DNA from: Alkalidesulfovibrio alkalitolerans DSM 16529 | GTDB taxonomy: Bacteria > Desulfobacterota > Desulfovibrionia > Desulfovibrionales > Desulfovibrionaceae | Assembly: GCF_000422245.1 (NCBI RefSeq) | Contig: NZ_ATHI01000002.1 | Span: 1-64,000, forward strand | Direction: 5' to 3' | DNA: 64,000 nt | Part shown: in pieces, positions 4,689 through 40,508 of the stretch | Position numbering within the stretch: the first letter of the stretch is position 1 | Layout of the letters: every line of letters begins with the position of its first letter | Position numbers and translations under genes: made by a program | Notes under the pieces: generated by a model | Databases searched by the model: none | Told to the model about the DNA's origin: nothing | What the model saw: only the letters and a program-made list of their open reading frames with translations

Positions 4689-4840
4689 GTCGTGTCCCGT
4701 TGCTGAGTGAGGTGGCCTGTGCGACTATATATACCCGCTTTGGGGCGCGAAGGGAACCTGTCTTGACGGCACAGGCGCTTGCCGAGCGTCCAAAGGCCTC
4801 ACACGCGGAAAACGAAGGCCGAGATTGTTACCCCCCTTTT

Positions 4841-4950
4841 CAGGCTGCCCCAAAAAGGCCCAGATGCAAAGCGCAAGAAAGCGCCGGACCTGACGCGTAT
4901 TTATGCGCTTTCGCGGCAACGCAGCAGATGGGGCTTTTTGAACAACCTGC
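4841..4950 (+). repeat. Dispersed palindromic element, copy A (degenerate)
   Basis: The copy runs CAGGCTGCCCC...AAAAAGGCCC to GGGGCTTTTTGAACAACCTG(C), with the family's internal blocks GCGCAAGAAAGCGCCGG and GCGCTTTCGCGGCAACGC. The centre is shortened to GCGTATTTATGCGC and lacks the GTGTATA/TATACAC stem of the best copies. It sits 129 bp beyond the stop of the SlyD-like gene. Confidence 0.75.
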
Positions 4951-27965: not shown

Positions 27966-28038
27966 GGATTTACGGCAATCCCGCAAGCGAGGCTTTTGAC
28001 CAATCTGCCAGCGCGGAGTTTTCACGCCACGCACCGAC

Positions 28039-28162
28039 AGGCCGGTCAAAGGGCGTCAGCTGCAAGGCGCACGAAAGCGCCGGCCTGGCGCGTATCAAAG
28101 TATACACGAGGGGTCGGCGCTTTCACGGCAACGCCGCAGATGGCACCTTTTCTCCGGCCTGC
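28039..28162 (+). repeat. Dispersed palindromic element, copy B
   Basis: The 124-bp copy has ends CAGGCCGGTCAAAGGGCG and TTTTCTCCGGCCTGC, and inner blocks TGCAAGGCGC...AAAGCGCCGG and CGGCGCTTTCACGGCAACGC. The centre is CGTATCAAAGTATACACG. Its last C is also the complement of the final G of the neighbour's TAG stop (28162-28164), so the element abuts that gene exactly. It lies between convergent genes. Confidence 0.85.
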
Positions 28163-33160: not shown

Positions 33161-33166
33161 ATTTCC

Positions 33167-33276
33167 CAGGCTGCTCAAAAAACGTCAGACGCAAGGCGCA
33201 AAACAACACCGGGACCGACGCGGCCAGGTCGGCGCTTTCGCGGCAACGTAGCAGATGGGGCCTATTCAGTAGCCTG
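33167..33276 (+). repeat. Dispersed palindromic element, copy C (centre-deleted)
   Basis: The 110-bp copy has ends CAGGCTGCTCAAAAAACG and CCTATTCAGTAGCCTG, and inner TGCAAGGCGC-like and CGGCGCTTTCGCGGCAACG blocks. The centre is reduced to CCGACGCGGCCAGGTCGG. It lies 37 bp after the membrane-protein stop and 78 bp before the thioesterase gene. GGCGGCG and seven T's follow, possibly a terminator. Confidence 0.75.
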
Positions 33277-33354
33277 GCGCCCGGCGGCGATTTTTTTGCT
33301 GCCAAAGAACGCCGTTTCGCCTACATTCGCGCCTCGCGACGAAAGGAGCACGCC

Positions 33355-37818: not shown

Positions 37819-38310
37819 TCAGGGCCGGTCGTCGTACGTCCAACGACCTGGGGGCGTCTTTCCCTCGAAGAAGTGAAGCACCCGCTCCTGTTCGGCGGCC
37901 TTGACGCGCAGGTCCGAGAGCGCATGGACCGCGTCCGTCCGGGCATAGATGGCCAGGGCACGCTCCATGAACTCCGCGAGCACGAACCCGGCCTCCACTT
38001 CCAGACCCTCGGGCCTGGTGGGCCAGGAAACGCGCAGTCGCAGGGTGTGGGAGCGGCTCCCGTCGGCCTCGGCGCGCGAGATCATGTTGCCGGTGCGTAC
38101 CAGCGTCTCAAGCGCGGCCTCTGGCGCCACGCCGGACCAGGCGGCCAGGCTCTGGGAGAAGAGCGGCTCCACCACGAGCCAGTAGTTCTGGTCGATCTTG
38201 CAGGCCACCGCGCTGCCTGGGGCGTTCAGCACGCCGGAATCCTTGGCGTAGCGGGCCGCCAGGGCCTTTTGCAGCTTGTCCAGCGTCTCGGCGTAGTCGA
38301 TGAGGGGCAT
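37819..38310 (-). CDS. Conserved hypothetical protein
   Basis: The 163-residue soluble, alpha/beta, acidic product has no signal peptide. Segments such as SAVACKIDQNYWLVVEPLF and LRVSWPTRPEGLEVEAGF suggest a compact beta-rich core. No family was recognised. It stands 165 bp upstream of the HD-GYP gene on the same strand. Confidence 0.55.
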   Translation of the reverse strand: MPLIDYAETLDKLQKALAARYAKDSGVLNAPGSAVACKIDQNYWLVVEPLFSQSLAAWSGVAPEAALETLVRTGNMISRAEADGSRSHTLRLRVSWPTRPEGLEVEAGFVLAEFMERALAIYARTDAVHALSDLRVKAAEQERVLHFFEGKTPPGRWTYDDRP

Positions 38311-38503
38311 GCGGCGGCCTCCTTTGCGCTATATCTACCCCACGTTCATGCCCCGCGCAAGGCGACGGCGGGAATAATACGGCATTTCCGGAAACAGGAG
38401 CGCCCCGCCGGTCCGGTTCGGGCCGACAGGGCGTCCAACAGGGGCGGATTCGCCGTTACGTAAAGCCTAGGCTGGCTTCAGTGCGCCCAGGCCGCTGAAA
38501 GAG

Positions 38504-38521
38504 GGGTTTGTCAACAAGCCC
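38504..38521. repeat. Short palindrome flanking the tandem repeat array
   Basis: GGGTTTGTCAACAAGCCC pairs almost perfectly with itself and shares the TTGTCAACAAGC core with the palindrome next to copy C. Confidence 0.35.
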
Positions 38522-38544
38522 AGGCCACTCGAAGAGCAACGCCC

Positions 38545-38667
38545 GCAGCCTGTCCCAAAAGCGCCGGATGCAAGGCGCACAAAAGCGCCGGGCCCGACGT
38601 GCATAAAAATATACACGAGGGATCGGCGCTTTCGTGGCAACGCGGCAGACGGTGCTTTTTCAACCCC
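38545..38667 (+). repeat. Dispersed palindromic element, copy D1
   Basis: First of three tandem copies, 123 bp, starting GCAGCCTGTCCCAAAAGC. The centre is CGTGCATAAAAATATACACG with one mismatch in the stem. It ends ...GCTTTTTCAACCCC where the next copy begins. Confidence 0.88.
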
Positions 38668-38789
38668 GCAGACTGTTCAAAAAGCGCTGGATGCAAGGCG
38701 CGAGAAAGCGCCGGGCCCGACGTGTATAAAAACATACACGAGGGATCGGCGCTTTCGCGGCAGCGCGGCAGACGGGGTTTTTTCAACCC
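38668..38789 (+). repeat. Dispersed palindromic element, copy D2
   Basis: Second tandem copy, 122 bp, starting GCAGACTGTTCAAAAAGC, with centre CGTGTATAAAAACATACACG. It is about as close to D3 as D1 is, with scattered single-base changes. Confidence 0.9.
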
Positions 38790-38916
38790 GCAGACTGTTC
38801 AAAAAGCGCCGGATGCAAGGCGCAAAAAAGCGCCGGGCCCGACGTGTATAAAAATATACACGAGGGATCGGCGCTTTCGTGGCAACGCGGCAGACGGGGC
38901 TTTTTCAACAGTCTGC
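38790..38916 (+). repeat. Dispersed palindromic element, copy D3 (most complete)
   Basis: The 127-bp copy has ends GCAGACTGTTCAAAAAGC (38790-38807) and GCTTTTTCAACAGTCTGC (38899-38916), inverted repeats matching at 17 of 18. The centre CGTGTATAAAAATATACACG is a perfect 8-bp stem with an AAAA loop. GCGCCG/CGGCGC pairs outside it. The final C doubles as the complement of the G of the opgG TAG stop. Confidence 0.92.
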
Positions 38917-40508
38917 TAGTCGCGCATCCAGGCGTAGGACCAAGTCTCGGTAAGGATGTCATCCCCGCGCTTGAGGTAGGCGCGCATTTCGATGGGCCTG
39001 GGCTCGCCTTCGGGCGGCGCGACCTCGAAATAAACGCGCCAGCCGTCCATGAAACGGTTCTTGACCGTGATGAGCTTGGCGATGCTGCCCTCGGAGAGGC
39101 TGATCACCGCCTCCACGGGCGCGTTGGCGGGCAGATCGGGCAACTCTCCGCCCGCGAAATCGACCACAAACAGCCGCGTGCCGGGCACCGCGTCGCGACA
39201 AGGCTCGGAGCCGCACATGCCGCCGCGCATCTGGTGCGTGGCCTGCACGTACCCCGCCGGGGGAACGTCTTGCAGCGAACCGTGGAAATAAGTCAGACGG
39301 TAGTCGAAAGACAAGGCGTCGCCCGCGCGGACTTCCTGCTGCGGCGTCCAGTAGGAGACGATGTTGTCGTATATCTCGGCGTCGGTGGGGATCTGCACCA
39401 GTTCCACCCGGCCCGGCCCCCAGTCGCCCTTGGGCTCCACCCAGGCGCTGGGCCGCAGATGATAGACCGCCTCGATGTCCTGGTAGTTCCAGACGTTGGT
39501 GTCGCGCTGCAAGAGGCCGAAACCGCGCGGGTTCTCGTCCGTGAAGGTGTTCACCAGAATGCTTTTGGGATTCATGAGGGGGCGAAGCAGCCACTCGCCG
39601 GCGCCGGTGTGCATGAGCAGCGTGTCCGAGTCATGCACCTCGGGCCTGAAATCGTCGATGAACCGCACCTCCTTGGGGAATCGGCCGGTGTTCTCTCCAT
39701 ACCAGTACATGCTCGTCAGAGGCGCCACGCCGACCTTTTTGATGTCCGCGCGGGCGAAGACGCGTGACTGCACGTCCACCACCGGCGTCTCGCCGGGAGT
39801 CAGATCGAAGCGGTACGCGCCGGAGACGCTCGGGCTGTTCATGAGCGCGTACACCGTGATGGACTCGGCATCCTTCTCGGGCTTGACGATCCAGAACTCC
39901 CGAAAATAGGGGAACTCCTCGCCCGAGGGCAGCACGGTGTCGATAGCCAGTCCGCGCGCCGAGAGGCCGTATTCCATGTCCCGCCCCTTGACCCGGAAAT
40001 AGCTCGCACCCAGAAAGACCATGCACTCCCGGTACTCCCCGCCCTGCTCGTACGGATGGAAGAGCACGAAACCGCCGAAGCCCAGGTCCTTCGGAAGCTT
40101 GCCGTGGGGATAGGCGCTTTTCTGATAGTTGAAGTAGTTCTCGGAGAAGGGCACTTCCTTGGCCGCGCCCTTTTCCACGGTGTTGATGGTCACTTTTTTC
40201 GTGAACAGGTAGCCGCGATGGAAGAAGGCCACGGCAAAAGGGCCCTTTTCCTTGCGCCAGAGCATGTTCTCGTCGTTGAACCTGATCTCGCCGAAGCCCG
40301 AGTAGTCGAGATTCCTGAAGAACTCCGGAAGCGGGTCGGATTCCGAGGCGTAAGGCTCCTGAGCCAGGGCCCTGGCCTTGGCCACGACCATCTCGAAGGA
40401 GAAGGGCGTCTCTTTGCCTGCGGCGAAGGCCGAACCGGCAGCCAGGATCACGAGCAGCCAAGCGGCTGCGAAGGCGCGCACGCGGCGCGCAACCGTCGTC
40501 GCGGTCAT
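38916..40508 (-). CDS. opgG: Periplasmic glucan biosynthesis protein OpgG (MdoG)
   Basis: The 530-residue precursor has a signal peptide (to AAGSAFA, about residue 29). OpgG/OpgD signatures follow: PFSFEMVVAKARALAQEPY, LPEFFRNLDYSGFGEIRF, SMYWYGEN and SVSGAYRFDLTPG. It shapes osmoregulated periplasmic glucans. AAAGGAGCATACGACA sets the start at 40508; the very long open frame further upstream is antisense to the next gene. The usual partner opgH is not adjacent, which is unusual. The stop is fused to the repeat array. Confidence 0.93.
   Translation of the reverse strand: MTATTVARRVRAFAAAWLLVILAAGSAFAAGKETPFSFEMVVAKARALAQEPYASESDPLPEFFRNLDYSGFGEIRFNDENMLWRKEKGPFAVAFFHRGYLFTKKVTINTVEKGAAKEVPFSENYFNYQKSAYPHGKLPKDLGFGGFVLFHPYEQGGEYRECMVFLGASYFRVKGRDMEYGLSARGLAIDTVLPSGEEFPYFREFWIVKPEKDAESITVYALMNSPSVSGAYRFDLTPGETPVVDVQSRVFARADIKKVGVAPLTSMYWYGENTGRFPKEVRFIDDFRPEVHDSDTLLMHTGAGEWLLRPLMNPKSILVNTFTDENPRGFGLLQRDTNVWNYQDIEAVYHLRPSAWVEPKGDWGPGRVELVQIPTDAEIYDNIVSYWTPQQEVRAGDALSFDYRLTYFHGSLQDVPPAGYVQATHQMRGGMCGSEPCRDAVPGTRLFVVDFAGGELPDLPANAPVEAVISLSEGSIAKLITVKNRFMDGWRVYFEVAPPEGEPRPIEMRAYLKRGDDILTETWSYAWMRD

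Follow-up and report, generated by a model that had tools for sequence, protein, structure and literature searches.

A three-unit hairpin array behind opgG of Alkalidesulfovibrio alkalitolerans as a probable triplication within an IS1182-type MITE

The window analysed here is a stretch of 64,000 nucleotides from Alkalidesulfovibrio alkalitolerans DSM 16529 (contig NZ_ATHI01000002.1), and behind its opgG gene it carries an array of three related hairpin units. Judged from its sequence, this array is best explained as an old triplication in place inside one MITE, and it is not shown to be dynamic. We regard it as likely that a single MITE of an IS1182-derived family inserted at the opgG stop codon and that two later rounds of duplication in place tripled its hairpin body. 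The two parts of this explanation differ in strength: the mechanism by which the array grew is the weaker one as compared to the IS1182 link.

Results

The array downstream of opgG

Direct reading of the sequence bears out the arrangement described in the first-pass annotation: three units of ~122 nt lie head to tail at 38545-38916, and the junctions read CAACCCC/GCAGAC and CAACCC/GCAGAC (the slash marks the border) with no spacer. Tandem Repeats Finder lists two rows in all for the 64-kb window, of which one is a repeat of period 122 at 38537-38909 (3.0 copies, 90% matches, score 639), and a repeat search returned three 123-nt copies at spacings of 123 and 122. Units A, B and C measure 123, 122 and 127 nt. 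The accompanying description of all three as palindromic copies has to be narrowed: they do stand in tandem, but only D3 is a complete palindrome, and D1 and D2 are not. The end of D3, ...CAACAGTCTGC, pairs with GCAGACTGTT, and the unit folds at -73.5 kcal/mol (z -9.9); the z values for D1 and D2 are -3.9 and -6.3. The element runs forward on the minus strand, as does opgG. In this direction, units B and A have kept the right arm, and the right arm of the preceding unit is followed by 4 or 5 nt and then by the core motif TGAAAA (Table 1).

The 24 nt that follow unit A very probably are part of the element, as their resemblance to the tails of other copies suggests, and the end of the element would thus lie beyond 38545. 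On the plus strand, this tail ends in CAGGCCACTCGAAGAG, by eye an imperfect partner of the left end CAGACTGTTGAAAAAG. The neighbouring segment at 38485-38518 is a probable remnant of a second element that would have lost its hairpin body by deletion.

Table 1. Features of the window that belong to the array, its host gene and further copies of the element.
Feature	Position	Strand	Description
opgG (MdoG, periplasmic glucan biosynthesis)	38919..40484	-	PF04349, 616 bits; 40484 is not a called start codon
opgG stop codon TAG	38916..38918	-	the element begins with the G of this codon
Unit C (D3)	38790..38916	-	first unit after opgG; the only one with a complete hairpin (126-127 nt)
Unit B (D2)	38668..38789	-	tandem copy without outer left arm; core TGAAAA 4 nt past unit C
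Unit A (D1)	38545..38667	-	tandem copy without outer left arm; the right arm, GGGACAGGCTGC on the minus strand, has diverged
Tail, 24 nt	38521..38544	-	assigned by eye against the tails of other copies, from which its length is taken
Putative second element	38485..38518		tail-like GGGTTTGTCAACAAG beside end-like CCAGGCCGCTGAAAGAGG, hairpin body gone (by eye)
Another copy	33166..33277	-	tail well conserved
Another copy	28037..28162	-	placed at CTAG
Another copy	4840..4950	-	terminator-like hairpin beside it, GGCCTTC on both sides, then a T-run

The gene directly upstream of the array, opgG, is its host gene. On the minus strand, the border between the two reads GCGCGAC TA/G CAGACTGTTGAAAAAG. 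CTAG thus stands on the left of the element; a matching repeat on the right is absent, and no target duplication is visible at this copy. In one genome of the same genus (G002), the opgG orthologue (65% identity) ends GCGCGAC TGA, and no copy of the element was found on the 108-kb contig that carries it; in another (G001), no element adjoins opgG. The simplest reading of these sequences is that the element arrived at opgG after the split from the G001 and G002 lineages, with loss as the alternative. The first-pass annotation had taken the same three copies in all relatives as a sign against a dynamic array: both same-genus genomes lack the element at opgG, but at this level of protein identity they are too distant to show dynamics.

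A hairpin family found across the phylum

In the genome of the window, BLAST gave at least 44 matches to the element (40 of 177 candidates were scored, and one match repeats another on the reverse strand). The stretches that we read contain 87 distinct copies or units, made up of 70 stronger matches, unit B of the window and 16 copies from a further search; five weaker forward matches (34-56 bits) were left out. With a covariance model, the element is found in 34 of 59 genomes of the order (E<=0.001) and in 65 of the 247 genomes of a phylum sample (E<=1e-6), the own genome being included in both numbers. All matches listed in the phylum search span model positions 1-126. The copy counts per genome are lower bounds, with 59 and 14 candidates scored per genome in the order and phylum searches, respectively.

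Over 42 copies, 96.5% of the stem cells are paired, and 17 of the 37 pairs have changed on both sides. The stem covariation amounts to 0.273 as compared to 0.129 in shuffled alignments (none of 500 reached the observed value) and 0.02-0.09 in slid versions; these controls keep the relatedness between the copies, and the structure was drawn from the same alignment. This alignment (A1) holds 42 of 53 copies; units B and A of the array were set aside, as were copies that are incomplete or of the duplicate type.

The Rfam search of 38300-39200 returned a single match that lies outside the array and below the gathering score (E 0.23); no match reached the threshold, and a known RNA family was thus rejected. 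No description of the element was found in the open literature, in which a search by motif led to unrelated papers only; subscription journals or supplements could still hold one.

Ends, tail and target duplications

The element is ~150 nt long and consists of the 126-nt hairpin and a 24-nt tail. It is bounded by imperfect terminal inverted repeats (left, CAGGCTGTTGAAAAAG; right, on the reverse strand, GAGATTGTTGACAAAC; compared by eye), and 38 places match a pattern taken from the end GAGGCTGTTGAAAAACTC, as compared to 3 for the reversed pattern used as a control. As expected of a MITE, it is short, carries no transposase gene and occurs in many dispersed copies. Target-site duplications are present at the level of the family, and they are of two types: (i) At seven of the 87 own copies, flanking direct repeats reach a score of at least 12, as compared to 3 of 1294 mismatched pairs. 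These repeats are 14-25 nt long, five of them exact and two imperfect, and by eye each can be folded into a hairpin. Since they abut the left end (gap 0 in six cases, 1 nt in the seventh) and resume 23-28 nt past the hairpin, the mobile unit would comprise the hairpin and a tail of ~24 nt. A T-run follows the hairpin repeat in only two of the seven copies (L226 and L228), and therefore not all targets need be terminators. Elsewhere, a perfect 30-nt hairpin repeat was found at one of 62 copies, in G001. A clear hairpin duplication is thus absent from 80 of the 87 own copies and from 61 of the 62 copies in other genomes; the copy at 4840..4950 has a repeat score of 7, which is not above the control level. 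An anchored stem of at least 6 bp closes the left flank at 12 of the 87 own copies and in 13 of 522 shifted controls. (ii) The tetranucleotide YTAR stands on the left of 23 among the 149 copies examined. Five of these repeat the same 4 nt after the tail, with ~0.3 expected; an exact repeat is absent in the other 18.

In the L228 copy at 1052, the right hairpin is the exact reverse complement of the left one (loop CA versus TG) rather than a direct copy.

Many insertions lie close to gene ends, which were called by a crude ORF and GC3 rule and not taken from an annotation. A gene end falls between -60 and +20 at 45 copies, and for 17 of these its position is exactly +1; the stop codons at this position are TAG (12), TAA (3) and TGA (2), and their third base is the first base of the element. 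The opgG copy, like 16 others, thus begins inside the stop codon. On the other side of the element, 5 of 11 gene ends coincide with the end of the tail.

A position after stop codons, which is also typical of the attC sites of integrons, together with a covarying stem and a constant length across the phylum would likewise suit a 3' RNA element, either a terminator or a stabiliser, that the host maintains by selection and whose mobility is only ancient. Moreover, three terminator-like sites lie on the opgG strand inside units C (D3) and A, with 1.1 expected (sd 1.1). These sites are short stems with T-runs. We nevertheless judge such an element to be unlikely: the full hairpin is followed by GGG or by the tail and not by a T-run. 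In addition, neither same-genus genome has the element at opgG, and its presence in the order is patchy. From its sequence, an effect of the array on transcription is possible.

The link to IS1182-type elements

A profile search for transposases of the families PF13751, PF05598, PF01609 and PF01797 found none in the own genome. Since this search detected no IS1182-type transposase, the partner of the MITE has to be inferred from relatives. In G010, a genome from the same bacterial family as the window, the transposase of an insertion sequence (IS) belongs to the NF033551 IS1182 family equivalog (463 bits). Eight of the eleven copies of this IS (L280, L282-L284, L286-L289) lie between direct repeats of 21-40 nt that are perfect or nearly so, and each repeat is a whole hairpin abutting the IS; one further copy has a hairpin on the left only. 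In G372, two of three IS copies have hairpin duplications (by eye), and in G376 all six left flanks read end in a hairpin; for this IS, which has ten matches, four are cut by contig ends and the left flanks alone were considered. The PF13751 IS pair in G027 has no hairpin duplication.

Two G010 copies on contig C1 (L285 and L290, at ~2.64 and 2.58 Mb) share a hairpin, which lies to the right of one copy and to the left of the other; recombination between the IS copies would give such an arrangement.

A second type of duplication was found in G039, a genome of the same order with an NF033551 IS1182 family transposase (323 bits, cut-off 270). Its three IS copies (L263, L277 and L339) are all flanked by 4-nt duplications, TTAG, TTAA and TTGA, and by no hairpin duplications; the TTGA pair was assigned by eye to a copy that is detected only with a tolerant motif. 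Both duplication types of the MITE can be accounted for because both occur with IS1182-family transposases, i. e. whole hairpins, mostly terminator-like, in G010 and G372 and 4 nt in G039, and the 4-nt duplications of G039 therefore remove the objection that the YTAR sites belong to another IS family.

The ends of the elements point in the same direction. The left and right ends of the MITE agree with those of the three hairpin-duplicating IS at 12-16 of 19 positions, which is similarity and not identity, and the other right end, seen in the YTAR copies, matches that of G039 at 17 of 19. Between this third MITE end and the hairpin-duplicating IS, the agreement is only 11-13 of 19. In these comparisons, the 19-mer background included IS loci, and the MITE end strings were picked by hand from younger copies. 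A motif scan of 20 transposase loci gave matches in five, and whole-copy comparison identified those at L260, L263 and L277 as real IS ends.

On these sequence similarities we read the family as an IS1182-type MITE, and we infer that an IS1182-type transposase moved it. That none was found in the own genome is compatible with a non-autonomous relic, with the IS1182 link coming from the relatives.

Origin of the array

According to our explanation, a MITE of ~150 nt would have inserted at the opgG stop codon, and two duplications of its hairpin body in place would have given the head-to-tail units of 122-123 nt. Growth would have occurred at the foot of the hairpin, where both ends of the duplicated segment come to lie side by side, presumably by replication slippage or unequal exchange, or else by template switching.

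The unit cores are 95.2% (A-C), 93.2% (B-C) and 88.8% (A-B) identical. Unit C thus lies between A and B in distance, and because the distances are roughly additive through C, it looks as if A and B had each been copied from a C-like unit. No other copy read is as close to C as A and B are: the best match among the others is 91.7% identical to C, 88.6% to B and 89.5% to A. Counting against duplication in place, the identity between A and B does not exceed that between A and one outside copy (89.5%). The junctions provide a second line of evidence. A complete right arm, 4-7 nt and then a core without outer arm make up a form of junction that is present at 9 of the 19 junctions examined, spread over eight loci; the seven loci besides the opgG array include ones in G058 (another family) and G015 (another genus). 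The ten other junctions do not have this form. The gaps were taken from motif matches, and the second unit is partial at L041 and truncated at L010.

As the point of duplication we considered a GTTG that the left arm has in common with the flank of unit A; this microhomology is suggestive, but it predicts an extra C that is missing at both junctions, and was rejected.

The first-pass annotation had attributed the tandem growth to unequal exchange, slippage or transposition of the element into itself. Slippage or unequal exchange fits, because C is nearest to A and B, A and B lack the same arm, and the junction recurs elsewhere. Transposition into itself is not supported at the opgG array. In such an event, a second element would enter a resident hairpin and the transposase would duplicate the latter, giving the order resident-newcomer-resident. 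IS1182-type elements of this order do duplicate whole hairpins, and elsewhere there are arrays that suit the idea: in the G002 array at C4:182861-183241, the two outer units show 100% identity and enclose a middle unit that is 80% alike, as expected from its sequence for an insertion into a resident hairpin, and in G000 (C26, near 234.8 kb) a single base separates unit 1 from unit 3, and unit 2 is 63% alike. Yet the newcomer unit of the G002 array is also without a tail, and the G000 array, which has four units, can equally be explained as a duplicated pair. At opgG, the outer units are not identical (95.2%), the middle unit is 93.2% alike to one of them, neither a tail nor a target duplication is found around it, and both later units lack the same arm. 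On the unit identities, self-insertion was thus rejected for this array, and we rate it as a rather improbable origin.

Two observations concern the other arrays themselves. The G002 arrays (L213, L214, L216, L201 and L197) have steps of ~168, 210 and 290 nt (range 168-294), and their repeated unit includes spacer DNA. The four-unit array of G000 (L014, C26, ~234.8-235.3 kb) alternates two unit types, and units 2 and 4 are 88% alike.

We consider it still less probable that related elements entered one site three times independently. Neighbouring copies do exist at several loci, and hairpins attract insertion; yet each arrival should bring both arms and a tail, whereas B and A are without the left arm and no tail intervenes, and the step is constant at 122-123 nt.

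For duplication in place, the units differ from each other by 5-11%, and the array is therefore old. To judge from the sequence, this divergence argues against ongoing expansion.

Discussion

Bacterial MITEs are short, non-autonomous elements with inverted ends that are present in many intergenic copies and duplicate their target. The family described here shares all of these properties, and it differs in that a hairpin body of ~126 nt is conserved over a phylum and that the target duplication varies with the site hit. REPIN/RAYT elements are intergenic palindromes as well, likewise multicopy and at times arranged in arrays. Mobilisation of a REP/REPIN element by a RAYT (Y1) transposase would thus account for palindromic, intergenic sequences in many copies, yet this origin was rejected as extremely improbable: a search for the Y1 transposase family PF01797 gave no match in G000, G001 and G002, each with at least 15 element matches, and neither the IS1182-type ends of the present family nor its target duplications have a place there.

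Multicopy, partly palindromic intergenic sequences have been described for Geobacter and Pelobacter genomes, and in G. bemidjiensis several multicopy palindromic sequences may share an intergenic region (passages of PMC2700814, PMC3543383, PMC2996986). As multicopy palindromes between genes of delta-proteobacteria they resemble the present family, a likeness of the descriptions and not of aligned sequences.

The closest parallel for the targeting of hairpins is IS1272, a member of the IS1182 family. In the passages cited here (PMC5678879, PMC4923244), it inserts in hairpins, often gene terminators, without sequence preference, and replaces the target hairpin wholly or partly without duplication. 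A model figure (PMC5678879) includes an alternative, b, with attack at the 5' feet, by which the stem-loop would be duplicated as a whole. The elements of G010 and G039 belong to the same transposase family as IS1272, and hairpin targeting is common to both systems. In contrast to what those passages describe for IS1272, the hairpin is duplicated around the present elements, and the element of the window carries no transposase gene.

It is tempting to speculate that across the phylum the MITE serves both as cargo and as landing pad: the IS1182-type transposase would recognise hairpins, duplicate them whole and insert into resident copies, arrays would be seeded in this way and then grow by slippage at the foot, and a placement at stop codons and at hairpins downstream of genes would keep the insertions harmless. 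We put this forward as a tentative idea that is more doubtful than the origin proposed for the opgG array.

With our analysis, an anonymous tandem repeat is recognised as what is probably a relic left by a mobile element, and an origin is proposed for a palindromic repeat that is very common in the phylum. The analysis also suggests that insertion by IS1182-family elements can duplicate the target hairpin as a whole (21-40 nt and perhaps as much as 126 nt), whereas IS1272, according to the passages cited, removes it. With such natural examples, structure-guided transposition becomes testable.
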